NCBI GenBank assembly: GCA_902593905.1 | Contig: CACJKF010000001.1 | Span: forward strand, 62,001-126,000 | Length of the DNA stretch: 64,000 nt | From: an uncultured Pelagibacteraceae bacterium | GTDB lineage: Bacteria > Pseudomonadota > Alphaproteobacteria > Pelagibacterales > Pelagibacteraceae | Direction: 5' to 3' | In this document: positions 4,405 to 62,196 of the stretch, in pieces | How the letters are laid out: each line of letters begins with the position of its first letter | Numbering within the stretch: position 1 is the first letter of the stretch | Translations under genes and position numbers: made by a program | The notes under the pieces: model-generated | Databases searched by the model: none | Seen by the model: the letters and a program-made list of their open reading frames with translations, nothing else | Told to the model about the DNA's origin: nothing

Positions 4405-4506
4405 ACCTATCGCACTAGTGGGCGAACCTTCGCTGACTAGTGTCGACACTCTTGTTTTCAAGAGCACCGCAAAAACATGTGTATTTGCGGAAAGTTTGAG
4501 GAAACT
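4405..4506. ncRNA. putative structured RNA element between ffh and dapF (four hairpins)
   Basis: The divergent gap between ffh and dapF carries four inverted repeats in a row. Hairpin 1 has arms CACTAGT 4413-4419 and ACTAGTG 4436-4442, with an inner GCGA/TCGC stem. Hairpin 2 is CTCTTG-TTTT-CAAGAG at 4449-4464. Hairpin 3 is CCGCAAA 4467-4473 with TTTGCGG 4484-4490. Hairpin 4 is AGTTT-GAGG-AAACT at 4493-4506. Such density is unusual in this DNA and implies a folded RNA on either strand: an ffh leader on the minus strand, a dapF leader, or a small RNA. The SRP-RNA signature (GGAA loop followed by AGCAG) is absent. I recall from memory, unverified, that ffh-associated structured motifs have been proposed for Pelagibacter. 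Confidence 0.55.
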
Positions 4507-35579: not shown

Positions 35580-35594
35580 AAAATTGAGGTAATT

Positions 35595-37754
35595 GTGGCT
35601 AGAAAAAAAAAGAGAAAAAAAAATAAAATTAAAAAAAACAAAAAGTCTAGAAAAACAAAAAAGTCTAGAAGGTTTAGAAAAGCTAAAAAAACTAGAAAAA
35701 TTAAGAAAACAAGAAAAGCTAGAAAAACTAGAAAGATTAATAAAAGATCTTCAAAAAAAAGATCTAAAGTAAGAAAAATTAACCTTAAACCACCTACGTA
35801 TTCAAAAGACAGTGACGGCAACTCTGTGATTAAGGTTTCCGATAGTTGGGCAAATCACGCTTACGTAAACGAGTCAAAATATAAAAAGAAGTATAAACTT
35901 TCAATCAAAGAAAATGATAAATTTTGGGCAAAGGAAGGAAAAAGAATTACTTGGATCAAAAAATATACAAAAATTAAAGATATCAAATACAGCAAAGAAG
36001 AAGTGAAAATAAAGTGGTTTTATGACGGTACACTTAACGCATCAGCAAACTGTATTGATAGACATCTTAAGAAAAATCCAAGTAAAACTGCAATCATTTG
36101 GGTTGGAGATGATCCAGCTGATACAAAAAAAATATCTTATAAAGAATTACATCAAAACGTTTGCAAAGCTGCTAATGGTTTGAAAAACTTAGGTATTCAA
36201 AAAGGTGATAGAGTTACAATTTACCTTACTATGATTCCAGAGTTGGCTTACATCATGTTAGCTTGCGCAAGAATAGGTGCAGTTCATTCAATAATATTTG
36301 GTGGTTTTTCTCCAGACTCTATTGCGACTAGAATAACTGATTGTGAATCTGAATACTTAATTACTGCCGATGAAGGAGTAAGAGGTGGAAAAATAATTCC
36401 ATTAAAAAAAATTGCTGATGAAGCTTTAGACCAATGTCCAGGAGTAAAAAAATGTGTTGTTGTTGAACGTACTGGTAATCAAGTTGATTGGAATAATGAA
36501 AGAGACGTATCTTATAAAGAATTAATTTCCTCAGTACCTTCTAAATGTGATCCCGAAGAGATGAATGCTGAGGATCCACTATTTATCCTTTATACTTCAG
36601 GATCTACAGGAAAGCCAAAAGGTGTTTTACATACAACTGGTGGATATATGGTTTATGCATCCATGACGCATCAATATATTTTTGATTATAAAGCCAATGA
36701 TGTTTATTGGTGCACAGCTGATATAGGATGGGTCACAGGACACAGTTATATTATATATGGACCATTATCTAACGGCGCCACAACTATAATGTTCGAAGGA
36801 GTTCCCAACTATCCTGATAGTTCTAGATGGTGGCAAATAGTTGATAAATATAAAGTTAATATCTTTTACACTGCACCTACCGCTATCAGAGCTTTAATGA
36901 GAGAGGGCGACAAACCAGTAAAGAAAACTTCTAGAAAAACTCTAAAATTACTAGGCACTGTAGGAGAACCGATCAATCCAGAAGCTTGGATGTGGTATTA
37001 CAAAATTGTAGGTGATTCTAGATGCCCAATTGTAGATACTTGGTGGCAAACTGAAACTGGAGGTATTTTAATTTCTCCACAGCCTGGAGCTATAGATTTA
37101 AAACCAGGATCAGCTACAAAACCTTTCTATGGAATAAAACCTGTATTAGTGGACAAAGATGGTAAAGTTGTTAAAGGAGAAGGAAAAGGTAGATTGTGTA
37201 TGGCCTCATCCTGGCCAGGACAAATGAGAACTGTTTACGGTGATCATCAAAGATTTATTGATACTTATTTTTCTCAATTTGATGGCAAGTATTTTACTGG
37301 AGATGGATGTAGGAGAGATAAAGATGGTTACTATTGGATTACCGGCAGAGTTGATGATGTAATTATTGTTTCAGGTCATAATCTCGGAACAGCGGAGATT
37401 GAAAGTGCTTTTGTTGCACACCCAAAAGTTGCTGAAGCAGCAGTAGTTGGCTTTCCACATAGTATAAAAGGAAATGGTTTGTATTGTTATGTTACATTAA
37501 ATGCAGGTGAAAATCCTACTGGGGATTTAGAAAGAGATCTTAAACTTTGGGTGAGAAAACAAATCGGTCCAATAGCTACACCTGACGTCATTCAATTTGC
37601 ACCTGGGTTACCAAAAACAAGATCCGGAAAAATTATGAGAAGAATTTTAAGAAAAATTGCTGCCAATGAACCTGATAATTTAGGAGATACAACAACTTTA
37701 GCAGATCCTAGTGTTGTGACATCGCTTGTAGAAAACAGACAAAATAAAGGTTAA
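35595..37754 (+). CDS. acs: acetyl-CoA synthetase with Lys/Arg-rich N-terminal extension
   Basis: AMP-forming acetate-CoA ligase, 719 residues versus about 650 in the family. The enzyme proper starts near residue 85 ([17 protein letters not shown]) and has the adenylation motif [39 protein letters not shown] and the C-terminal acetylation-site lysine in [12 protein letters not shown]. Residues 2 to about 62 are almost only Lys, Arg, Thr and Ser with repeated KKTRK units. GTG at 35595 has a good GAGG site 5 bp upstream; the next plausible in-frame start (GTG 35826, Val78) has none, so the long form is favoured. The acetate symporter genes follow. Confidence 0.95.
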
Positions 37755-48375: not shown

Positions 48376-48450
48376 TGGAGCGGGCAAAGGGGCTCGAACC
48401 CTCGACCTTCTCGTTGGCAACGAGACGCTCTACCACTGAGCTATGCCCGC
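48376..48450 (-). tRNA. tRNA-Gly (GCC anticodon)
   Basis: 75-nt cloverleaf on the minus strand. The acceptor stem GCGGGCA pairs with TGCCCGC, discriminator T, and CCA is encoded. The D arm is GCTC-AGTGGTA-GAGC, the anticodon stem TCTCG/CGAGA holds loop TTGCCAA (anticodon GCC), and the T arm is GAGGG-TTCGAGC-CCCTT. All arms pair. Confidence 0.97.
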
Positions 48451-59107: not shown

Positions 59108-60100
59108 TTAAAGAAATTTGCTGATTAACTTTTCAAACAGCTTTATATGCTCTGGACTATCATTTAAGCACGGAATTAAATCAAAGTTTTTTCCCCCTTT
59201 TTCAATGAAACTATCCCTTCCTTGAATGTTTATTTCTTCAAGAGTTTCTACGCAGTCAGAGGAAAAGCCTGGGCAAATTACTAATAAATTTTTGATTCCC
59301 TTTCCTGGCAAAGACTCTAATGTTTTGTCGGTGTAAGGTGTTAACCACTCTTGAGGTCCAAATCTTGATTGGAAAGTTGTCTGAATTTCAACTTTATTAA
59401 ATTTTTCTTTAATTAACCTTGTGGTTTTTTGACAGTAACAATGGTATGGGTCTCCTTTATCAAAGTATGATTTAGGTATACCGTGGTAAGAAGCAATAAT
59501 TAAATCAGGCTTCCAGCTTATCTGTTCAATTTTCTTTTCTATGCTATTTATTAATGCATCGATATAATCAGGATCGCTTTCGTAATGAGGAATTATTTGT
59601 AAACTCGGTTGCCATCTCATTTTCATTAAAGATCTGTAAACTTCATCGCATACAGTAGCTGTTGTTGCGGCAGCATACTGAGGATACAACGGAAGAATAA
59701 TTATATTTTCACATCCTTGATCTTTAAGTTGCGCTAAACGCGAATTTATGCTTGGATTGCCGTATCTCATCGCAAAATCTATAATTACTTTTTCATTTCC
59801 TACTTTTTTATTAAGATGTATCGCTTGTTTCTTTGTAAAGTATAATAGAGGAGACTCGTTCGTATCTTTTCTCCATATTTTTTTATAAGCATGAGCCGTT
59901 TTTGAAGGCCTAAATGTCAATATAAATAAGTTTAATATTATTTGCCAAATAATTGGGTTGACCTCAATTACTCTTCTATCAGATAAGAATTCTTTCAAAT
60001 ATTTTCTTATATCCCACCAACTGGTAGAATCGGGTGTTCCTAAATTAATAATTAGTACACCAGTTTTACCAAATTTTACTTCTGGATGGTCTTTGTTCAT
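59108..60100 (-). CDS. hemH: ferrochelatase
   Basis: Inserts Fe2+ into protoporphyrin IX, the last step of haem synthesis. 330 residues. Motifs are GVLIINLGTPDS, FLSDRRVIEVNP, FAMRYGNPSI, ILPLYPQYAAATTATV, ASYHGIPKSYFDKGDPY (active-site His) and CPGFSSDCVETLEEI (catalytic Glu). ATG overlaps the hemE stop by 4 bp. Confidence 0.97.
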   Translation of the reverse strand: MNKDHPEVKFGKTGVLIINLGTPDSTSWWDIRKYLKEFLSDRRVIEVNPIIWQIILNLFILTFRPSKTAHAYKKIWRKDTNESPLLYFTKKQAIHLNKKVGNEKVIIDFAMRYGNPSINSRLAQLKDQGCENIIILPLYPQYAAATTATVCDEVYRSLMKMRWQPSLQIIPHYESDPDYIDALINSIEKKIEQISWKPDLIIASYHGIPKSYFDKGDPYHCYCQKTTRLIKEKFNKVEIQTTFQSRFGPQEWLTPYTDKTLESLPGKGIKNLLVICPGFSSDCVETLEEINIQGRDSFIEKGGKNFDLIPCLNDSPEHIKLFEKLISKFL

Positions 60101-61104
60101 TTAAAATTCCTATAAAATTTAACAAGATTATTTACTTTATCAGGATCTGTTTCTGGAAGTAAACCATGACCTAAATTAAAAACATAAGGAATTTCTTTAA
60201 AAGCATTTAGGTATTTCGTCGCTTCATTGAAAAGAGATTCTTCTGATTTTAACAAAACCTTTGGGTTCAAACCTCCTTGTAAAACTACATTTATTAACTT
60301 ATCCCTAGCCCATAAGGGATCAATCTCTGGATCTAGGTTCAATCCATCAGGTTTTACCATTTGATGAAAATTTTCAAACTTCTTATTTATTCCTTTAGGA
60401 AAACAAATATTTGCAATCTGTTTTTTTTTACAAAATTCAACAATTTTAGCATTAGGTTTATAGCAAAAATCTTGAATACTCTTATCTGGTATTAATCCAG
60501 CCCAAGAGTCAAATATTTGCACAACATCTGCACCTGCATTGATTTGACCTTGAATATGAATACACAGATATTCTATTAATTTGTTTATAATTAAATTAAA
60601 TTTTAAGTCTTTATTTTCCAATTTTTCTAAATTAATTTCATTTTTATTTTTTTTAAGATTCAACATATAAACTAAAAGAGTCCATGGGGCCCCTATAAAA
60701 CATACTAGAGATTTTTCTTTGTCTAACTTACTCCTTGTAATTTCTATCGCCTTATAAATTGGAGCTAATTTTTTTGAAAATTCCAGTTTATTATTACGAG
60801 AAAAATTATCCATTCTAAATTCGCTTAATTTCGGTCCTTCATCTTTAATAAAAGTTACTTCTTGGCCTAAAGCATATGGCACCATTAAAATATCAGAAAA
60901 AATTATCGCAGAGTCGAGATTAAATCTTTTGATTGGTTGCAAAGTAATCTCAGATGCTAAATCACTATTTAGGCAAAGTTCAATAAAATTTGGATTTTTT
61001 AATCTTAATTCACGGAATTCAGGTAAGTATCTTCCTGCTTGTCTCATAAACCATACCGATTTACAAATCTTCTTTTTTAATAAAATATTTTTAAGATTAC
61101 TCAT
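60097..61104 (-). CDS. hemE: uroporphyrinogen decarboxylase
   Basis: Removes four carboxyl groups from uroporphyrinogen III. 335 residues. The substrate-binding SVWFMRQAGRYLPEFRELR, AIIFSDILMVPYALGQEV with its Asp, FDSWAGLIP and LNLGHGLLPETDPDKV-type C-terminal blocks are all visible. First gene of the minus-strand hemE-hemH-hemJ run and directly adjacent to the presumed origin. Confidence 0.97.
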   Translation of the reverse strand: MSNLKNILLKKKICKSVWFMRQAGRYLPEFRELRLKNPNFIELCLNSDLASEITLQPIKRFNLDSAIIFSDILMVPYALGQEVTFIKDEGPKLSEFRMDNFSRNNKLEFSKKLAPIYKAIEITRSKLDKEKSLVCFIGAPWTLLVYMLNLKKNKNEINLEKLENKDLKFNLIINKLIEYLCIHIQGQINAGADVVQIFDSWAGLIPDKSIQDFCYKPNAKIVEFCKKKQIANICFPKGINKKFENFHQMVKPDGLNLDPEIDPLWARDKLINVVLQGGLNPKVLLKSEESLFNEATKYLNAFKEIPYVFNLGHGLLPETDPDKVNNLVKFYRNFK

Positions 61105-61377
61105 ATTAAATAAAAGTTTTTTAAAAGTGTTGTATTAGTACTAGGACCTGTTAAGTGCTCATATAACTTTTTATACATATTTTATACAGCCATTATTTTA
61201 TAATTTTTTAAAAAAACCCTATATTTAAATACTTTATTAATCTTATAAACATTAGTAAAACATCATTATTAACATCGAACAAAATGTTTAAATCATGTTA
61301 ATTAATGTTAATCTTTTTAGGTCTCAGCTTAAAATAGGTGGAAAAACATTATTTATTATTTATTTATTAACAAACAT
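61105..61377. other. probable chromosomal replication origin (oriC)
   Basis: The longest gene-free stretch in the window, 273 bp, very A+T-rich and lying between divergent hemE and ppsR, exactly where Caulobacter oriC lies (hemE and the DUF299/RP001 gene). DnaA-box-like words TTAT(T/A)AACA occur at 61243-61251, 61266-61274 and 61364-61372, with weaker TTATACATA at 61171-61179 and TTATACAGC at 61182-61190. ATGTTAAT occurs at 61295-61302 and 61305-61312, its inverse at 61268-61275, and ATGTTTAA at 61284-61291, spaced about 10-11 bp. An A/T-only run at 61348-61370 could unwind. No perfect TTATCCACA box was seen. Confidence 0.7.
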
Positions 61378-62196
61378 ATGAACGAAAAATACAATGTATA
61401 TCTTGTTTCTGACTCAACAGGTGAAACCCTAGATAGAATATTTTTGTCTCTCAAATCTCAATTCGCGAATTTCGAATATGATAAAAAAGAGTTCGCTTTC
61501 GTAAGAACGGAACAACAAATAGATAAAATAATCAAGGAATGTAATAAAGTCGAAAACTCTCTAATTTTATATACAATAGTTGAGACAAAGTTAGCGAAAT
61601 ATCTATCAAATCAAAGTGAAATAAATAATGTCCCCTGTTTTGGAATTTTAGGCAATTTAATCTTAAGTTTTTCAAAGCTTTTAAATCAAAAAGCAATACA
61701 CAAACCAAGTGCACAACATGTTCTTGATGATGATTATTACAAAAGAATTGAGGCAATACAATTTACCATGTCACACGACGATGGAAAAAAGGTAGATGAT
61801 ATAAATAATGCCGATGTTATTTTGCTGGGAGTAAGTAGAACTAGCAAAACACCGACGTCTATCTATTTAGCAAACAGGGGATATAAAACAATAAATATTC
61901 CTTTAGTATTGGAGCAAAAACTTCCTGAAGGATTGAAGGTGAATAAAAAAGTTTGTGTAGTAGGATTAATTGCCGACCCCGAACGATTAGCTGATATTAG
62001 AAGAAATAGAGTTGCAATTATGAAAGATCAAAGTTTAAAAGAGTACACAGATTTAGAGTCTATAAAAAAAGAGATTGAGGATTCAAAAATCCTATTTAAA
62101 AAAAATAATTGGCCTATTATCGATGTAACAAGAAAATCAGTAGAGGAAACAGCAGCGTCAATTTTAAAAATCATTGAAATAACCAAGAGCAAATGA
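61378..62196 (+). CDS. ppsR: kinase/pyrophosphorylase regulating PPDK or PEP synthase (DUF299)
   Basis: Bifunctional regulator that phosphorylates and dephosphorylates pyruvate phosphate dikinase or PEP synthetase, controlling pyruvate-PEP flux. 272 residues. The family N-terminus YLVSDSTGETLDRIFLSL and the P-loop-like GVSRTSKTPTSIYLANRGY are diagnostic, with YTDLESIKKEIEDS and the C-terminal PIIDVTRKSVEETAA. Its place beside hemE is conserved at alphaproteobacterial origins. Overlaps maf by 4 bp. Confidence 0.95.
   Translation: MNEKYNVYLVSDSTGETLDRIFLSLKSQFANFEYDKKEFAFVRTEQQIDKIIKECNKVENSLILYTIVETKLAKYLSNQSEINNVPCFGILGNLILSFSKLLNQKAIHKPSAQHVLDDDYYKRIEAIQFTMSHDDGKKVDDINNADVILLGVSRTSKTPTSIYLANRGYKTINIPLVLEQKLPEGLKVNKKVCVVGLIADPERLADIRRNRVAIMKDQSLKEYTDLESIKKEIEDSKILFKKNNWPIIDVTRKSVEETAASILKIIEITKSK

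Follow-up and report, generated by a model that had tools for sequence, protein, structure and literature searches.

The gap between hemE and ppsR in the window, i.e., the whole 64,000-nucleotide stretch of DNA analysed here (bases 62001-126000 of a 413-kb contig, in an incomplete genome of 848 kb, 30 contigs and 77% completeness), is with high probability the replication origin (oriC) of a Pelagibacteraceae (SAR11) bacterium, with DnaA boxes that would have shifted from TTATNCACA to TTATNAACA alongside substitutions in a turn of DnaA. The parts of this reading differ in strength: the gap is very likely the origin, DnaA is likely the protein that binds its words, and a re-targeted DnaA specificity, as suggested by sequence comparison, has somewhat better than even chances. 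In a scan of named genomes, the nearest relatives were Pelagibacteraceae, among them strain HIMB058 and numerous single-cell genomes. Hereafter, g1 stands for the window's genus, g5, g6 (probably Pelagibacter) and g7 for other genera within its family (f1), and f2 for a different family within the order; named loci were grouped by similarity rank, and a few divergent members may sit in the wrong group.

Locus, conservation and replichore switch

According to curated family models, the gene order around the gap is rho-hemJ-hemH-hemE, gap, ppsR-maf-aroE (the maf of the window scoring slightly under its family-model cut-offs), with hemE starting at 61104 on the minus strand and ppsR at 61378 on the plus strand, as the sequence-only reading had placed them. 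Caulobacter, where the origin has been mapped experimentally, and Rickettsia prowazekii have theirs in the same neighbourhood (PMC1914354), and the gap would be the positional homologue of both: the locus has the Cori-type order hemE-gap-COG1806 and, as in Cori-type hemE/COG1806 origins, an A+T content above average (19% GC in the gap vs. about 30% across the window). It had also been described as the longest gene-free gap of the window, which holds provided that GTG and TTG count as start codons: acs and other ORFs then fill the stretches at 35580, 47161 and 52086 that had seemed longer. The acetate-CoA ligase encoded at 35595-37754 (+) starts with GTG and is extended at its N-terminus by ~65 residues, nearly all lysine or arginine, which may reflect either a wrong start codon or a real tail. 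Elsewhere in the window, 4405-4457 (-) matches the ffh sRNA family of Rfam (RF01793), and a tRNA-Gly(gcc) lies at 48376-48450 (-).

Across 135 Pelagibacterales loci (the window and 134 others), the homologous gap measures 266-289 bp; hemE identity to the window's copy is merely 34-70% in the other loci, yet gap length stays tight. In f2 (loci L090-L106), ppsR was not found and maf adjoins a gap of 273-278 bp, while in g5 (L107, L108, L317, L318) hemE has been relocated beside an apparent hemB and rho adjoins the gap instead. Since the gap outlives the loss of either neighbour, it is not simply a promoter of them. It could still be argued that its words serve the divergent hemE and ppsR as promoter or regulatory sites for a transcription factor and that replication begins elsewhere, given that the genes diverge and that the last word lies 5 bp ahead of the ppsR start codon. 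We regard this as very improbable, the element being kept without ppsR or without hemE, at a nearly constant length, and coinciding with a replichore switch in complete relatives.

To locate this switch, skews at third codon positions were fitted with separate terms for gene strand and replication arm (G076 and G079 being sampled over about one third of their length). In complete relatives, the switch falls at the gap or close to it, being sharp in G076, broad in G073 and visible in gene strand only in G079. In G076 (gap at 1090 kb), the joint score (0.112), GC3 (0.107) and gene strand (0.673) at the gap exceed those at every 20-kb grid position, the TA3 term being weak there. In G073 (gap at 67 kb), the best positions are 60-70 kb for gene strand, 60-100 kb for GC3, 40-60 kb for the TA3 boundary and 30-60 kb for the joint fit; gene strand at the gap reaches 0.641 vs. 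a null maximum of 0.623, and the joint score is 0.029 vs. a null maximum of 0.021 (200 permutations of 20-gene blocks in both cases). For G079, the gap is where gene strand has its peak, and skew gives no clear switch. The cumulative GC skew put forward as a check by the sequence-only reading decides nothing on the window's own 413-kb contig, where the curve is noisy with a raw minimum at 367 kb and not at the gap; by third codon positions, the GC3 sign at the gap is wrong on this contig, and TA3 and gene orientation agree weakly. Together, the replichore switch and the length and words shared with the 134 other loci back the earlier proposal of a probable SAR11 oriC.

DnaA-like words and the drift at position 6

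All words listed by the sequence-only reading are present where it had located them, i.e., TTATAAACA at 61243, TTATTAACA at 61266 and 61364, TTATAC at 61171 and 61182, and the array formed by ATGTTTAA at 61284 and ATGTTAAT at 61295 and 61305, with an inverted copy at 61268-61275; the classic TTATCCACA, reported as absent, was indeed not found anywhere in the 64-kb window. The alignment of homologous gaps that it had suggested shows these words to be conserved: in 44 distinct g1 gaps, the conserved runs mostly correspond to nine ACA-ended words (Table 1), the ACA parts of which are conserved at 0.75-1.0, and conservation is higher in ACA/TGT trinucleotides than in the remainder of the gap (p = 0.002). 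Among them, the two conserved TTTTATACA words, with T at position 6, may be weak sites. In relatives, the site of the 61149 box is of the TCCACA/ATCACA type in f2 and mostly TTATTCACA in g6, the site at the ppsR end also holds a TTATNAACA word in g6 and g5, and the g5 gap has TTATAAACA three times, two of these where the hemE-side and ppsR-side end boxes sit.

Table 1. Coordinates of the candidate origin, its boundary genes and its predicted elements (positions in the window; conservation values from g1 gaps).
Feature	Position	Strand	Support
Gap between divergent hemE and ppsR, very likely oriC	61105..61377	.	273 bp, 19% GC
hemE, left boundary gene	60097..61104	-	TIGR01464 above cut-off
ppsR / DUF299 / COG1806, right boundary gene	61378..62196	+	NF003742 above cut-off
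DnaA-trio-like triplets CTA-GTA-CTA-ATA, proposed unwinding start towards hemE (inferred)	61133..61144	-	Comparable blocks in g6, g7, g5, f2
GC-rich spacer GGTC, between box and triplets	61145..61148	-	TAGGNC conserved in 44 g1 gaps
Putative box CACTTAACA, unwinding-proximal	61149..61157	-	ACA conserved 1.0 in 44 g1 gaps
ACA-ended word TTTTATACA, T at position 6, possible weak box	61169..61177	+	Conserved run TTTATACA
ACA-ended word TTTTATACA, 11 bp past preceding copy	61180..61188	+	Conserved run TTTATACA
DnaA-like box TTATAAACA	61243..61251	+	Entire word is a conserved run
DnaA-like box TTATTAACA	61266..61274	+	AACA conserved 0.95-1.0
Putative box ATTTAAACA, first in tandem array of three, spaced 11 and 10 bp	61285..61293	-	TGTT conserved 0.89-1.0
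Putative box TAATTAACA, second in array	61296..61304	-	TGTTAATTA among most conserved runs
Putative box AGATTAACA, third in array	61306..61314	-	TGTTA conserved run
DnaA-like box TTATTAACA, directly before ppsR ATG	61364..61372	+	ACA conserved 1.0

The 413-kb contig has 39 copies of TTATWAACA (~0.03 expected per 273 bp), and the gap is its sole 300-bp stretch with three. Words were counted per distinct gap and compared with dinucleotide shuffles, the sequences being related, so that the folds reported below do not amount to independent trials. In the 44 g1 gaps, TTATNAACA reaches 2.16 per gap vs. 0.15 in shuffles and TTATNCACA 0.02 vs. 0.03 (with none in the window's gap); the corresponding values are 2.42 vs. 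0.16 and 0.85 vs. 0.04 in g6, and 0.18 vs. 0.07 and 0.29 vs. 0.03 in f2, where the relaxed word NTNTNCACA is found 2.0 times per gap vs. 0.31 (CACA-type enriched). The excess of TTATNAACA is 14-15-fold in g1 and g6 and hardly any in f2, from which it follows that f2 retains canonical-type words, g6 has both types and g1 has the A type only. Mid-gap, over half of the g6 gaps (e.g., L082, L084) also feature GAAGCTT/TGAAGCT (0.54-0.58 per gap vs. ~0 in shuffles), which are not among the top words of g1 or f2 gaps.

At position 6 of the g1 words, A is present 2.16 times per gap vs. 0.16 for T, in line with the drifted box that the sequence-only reading had postulated. C-to-T is the usual path of decay. 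That position 6 has become A and not T in spite of it, with the C of ACA left in place, points to a new word having been selected rather than to erosion of the old one.

At face value, the gap might nevertheless be an oriC served by a DnaA of canonical preference, the TTATNAACA words being weak boxes left by A+T mutation pressure. The gap is ~80% A+T, the DHTT and RPRQ residues of the window genome's DnaA are unaltered, and the same 9-mer TTATTAACA has been proposed as a putative DnaA box in other A+T-rich genomes, those of Mycoplasma hominis, M. mobile and M. arthritidis (PMC2751442), though this lineage is unrelated and has its boxes upstream of dnaA, not between hemE and ppsR. Mutation pressure sits poorly, however, with full-match words that have A and almost never T at position 6 next to an intact ACA, and with their large excess over shuffles matched in composition; we therefore consider this explanation unlikely.

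Proposed unwinding region and other candidate binders

At the hemE end, the minus strand reads the box CTTAACA, then GGTC, then CTA-GTA-CTA-ATA, in a conserved order that matches the succession of box, GC-rich spacer and triplets known from the unwinding elements of origins (PMC8235120, PMC10721633), and comparable blocks sit at the same place in g6, g7, g5 and f2. In-phase NTA triplets are moderately above shuffles (54/68 vs. 25 in g6; 21/44 vs. 15 in g1). The unwinding block is likely to lie on the hemE side of the gap, whereas the sequence-only reading had suggested the A/T run just before ppsR; that proposal is not favoured, since the conserved block is at the other end and a duplex-stability scan located none of the least stable 40-mers before ppsR. 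In the mechanism that we propose, DnaA would bind about nine 9-mer words (consensus TTATNAACA and weaker relatives) and extend from the 61149 box over the short GC-rich spacer onto the minus-strand triplets, so that the duplex would open towards hemE. Bacillus subtilis and Helicobacter pylori origins have the same order in their basal unwinding system (PMC10721633, PMC8235120), but the putative SAR11 triplets are less regular and only one clear box faces them.

IHF-type sites amount to 0.34 per gap vs. 0.30 expected, and GANTC sites show no enrichment in the gaps. As in Caulobacter, the cell-cycle regulator CtrA might instead recognise the TTAA-rich array, and TTAA-N7-TTAA is indeed 3.4-fold above shuffles in g1 gaps. 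Yet TTAA-N6-TTAA is equally enriched, as expected of tandem boxes, and the N7 enrichment is nearly absent in g6 and nil in f2. Moreover, no CtrA scored above the cut-off in 21 Pelagibacterales genomes (best score of 138.6 vs. 350 bits, with a model tuned to Rhodobacterales), and the four OmpR-type proteins of the window's genome include one PhoB and no CtrA, which leaves CtrA binding hardly credible.

Compared with Caulobacter crescentus Cori and the R. prowazekii ori (PMC1914354), the candidate origin has in common the flanking genes, the position, the A+T-rich gap and several DnaA-type words. It differs from them in that the window's genus goes practically without TTATNCACA, without any CtrA found and without clear enrichment in IHF sites, and in its size (273 bp vs. 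>400 bp).

The DnaA initiator and a possible joint shift with its origin

Near the recognition helix, DnaA reads FANRDHTTVIHA in g1 (FANRDHTT), F(S/A)NRDHTT(I/V)IHS in g6, FSGRDHTT in g7 and FTGRDHTT in g5, vs. the canonical FGGRDHTT in f2 and E. coli. Among 385 sampled alphaproteobacterial genomes, F[AS]NRDHT was detected in three, all Pelagibacteraceae (AGY serine codons lying outside the search), while the first glycine is substituted and the second kept in seven, i.e., two g5 and five outside the family. In these five (L321-L325), a DnaA-like sequence has Ala, Ser or Thr where GGRDH has its first glycine. At the level of a review (PMC5742627), helix 434-451, which comes after the substituted turn, reads the TnCACA half of the box.

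The change from FGGRDH to FANRDH in the turn before the recognition helix appears to accompany the shift from TTATNCACA to TTATNAACA. In this scenario, the DnaA target in Pelagibacteraceae would have moved together with the turn (as FANRDH in the window's genus), the residue change altering word preference; the first Gly is, however, also substituted in the five genomes outside the family, and within SAR11 the change may go back to a single evolutionary event, so that the link between protein and words is a correlation. An Asn at the second glycine as the sole cause was rejected, since g5 and g7 keep that Gly yet have A-type words. On balance, we lean slightly towards a re-targeted initiator in Pelagibacteraceae, i.e., a DnaA with a substituted turn that would prefer A over C at position 6, and origins that would have canonical words in f2, both types in g6 and only the A type in g1.

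In the genomes checked with both on one contig, dnaA lies ~61-75 kb from the gap (G000:C1, with the gap at 123.2 kb and dnaA at 197.8 kb, G072-G079, G081, G002, G015 and G036, as well as G037 and G043 in f2). No description of a SAR11 origin or of its DnaA boxes was found in the open literature searched, where the take-over by TTATTAACA across the SAR11 family and the change beside the DnaA recognition helix likewise appear to be undescribed.

SAR11 bacteria rank with the most abundant cells of the ocean, and a precise SAR11 origin provides a reference point for estimating growth from metagenome coverage. At least one method, GRiD, sets the origin at dnaA (PMC7852909), which here lies ~61-75 kb from the gap. 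With canonical, mixed and shifted boxes in sister lineages, the Pelagibacterales offer a series for the joint change of initiator and origin, and, if the re-targeting is true, the path from f2 to g6 to g1 would represent a natural series of initiator-origin co-evolution.
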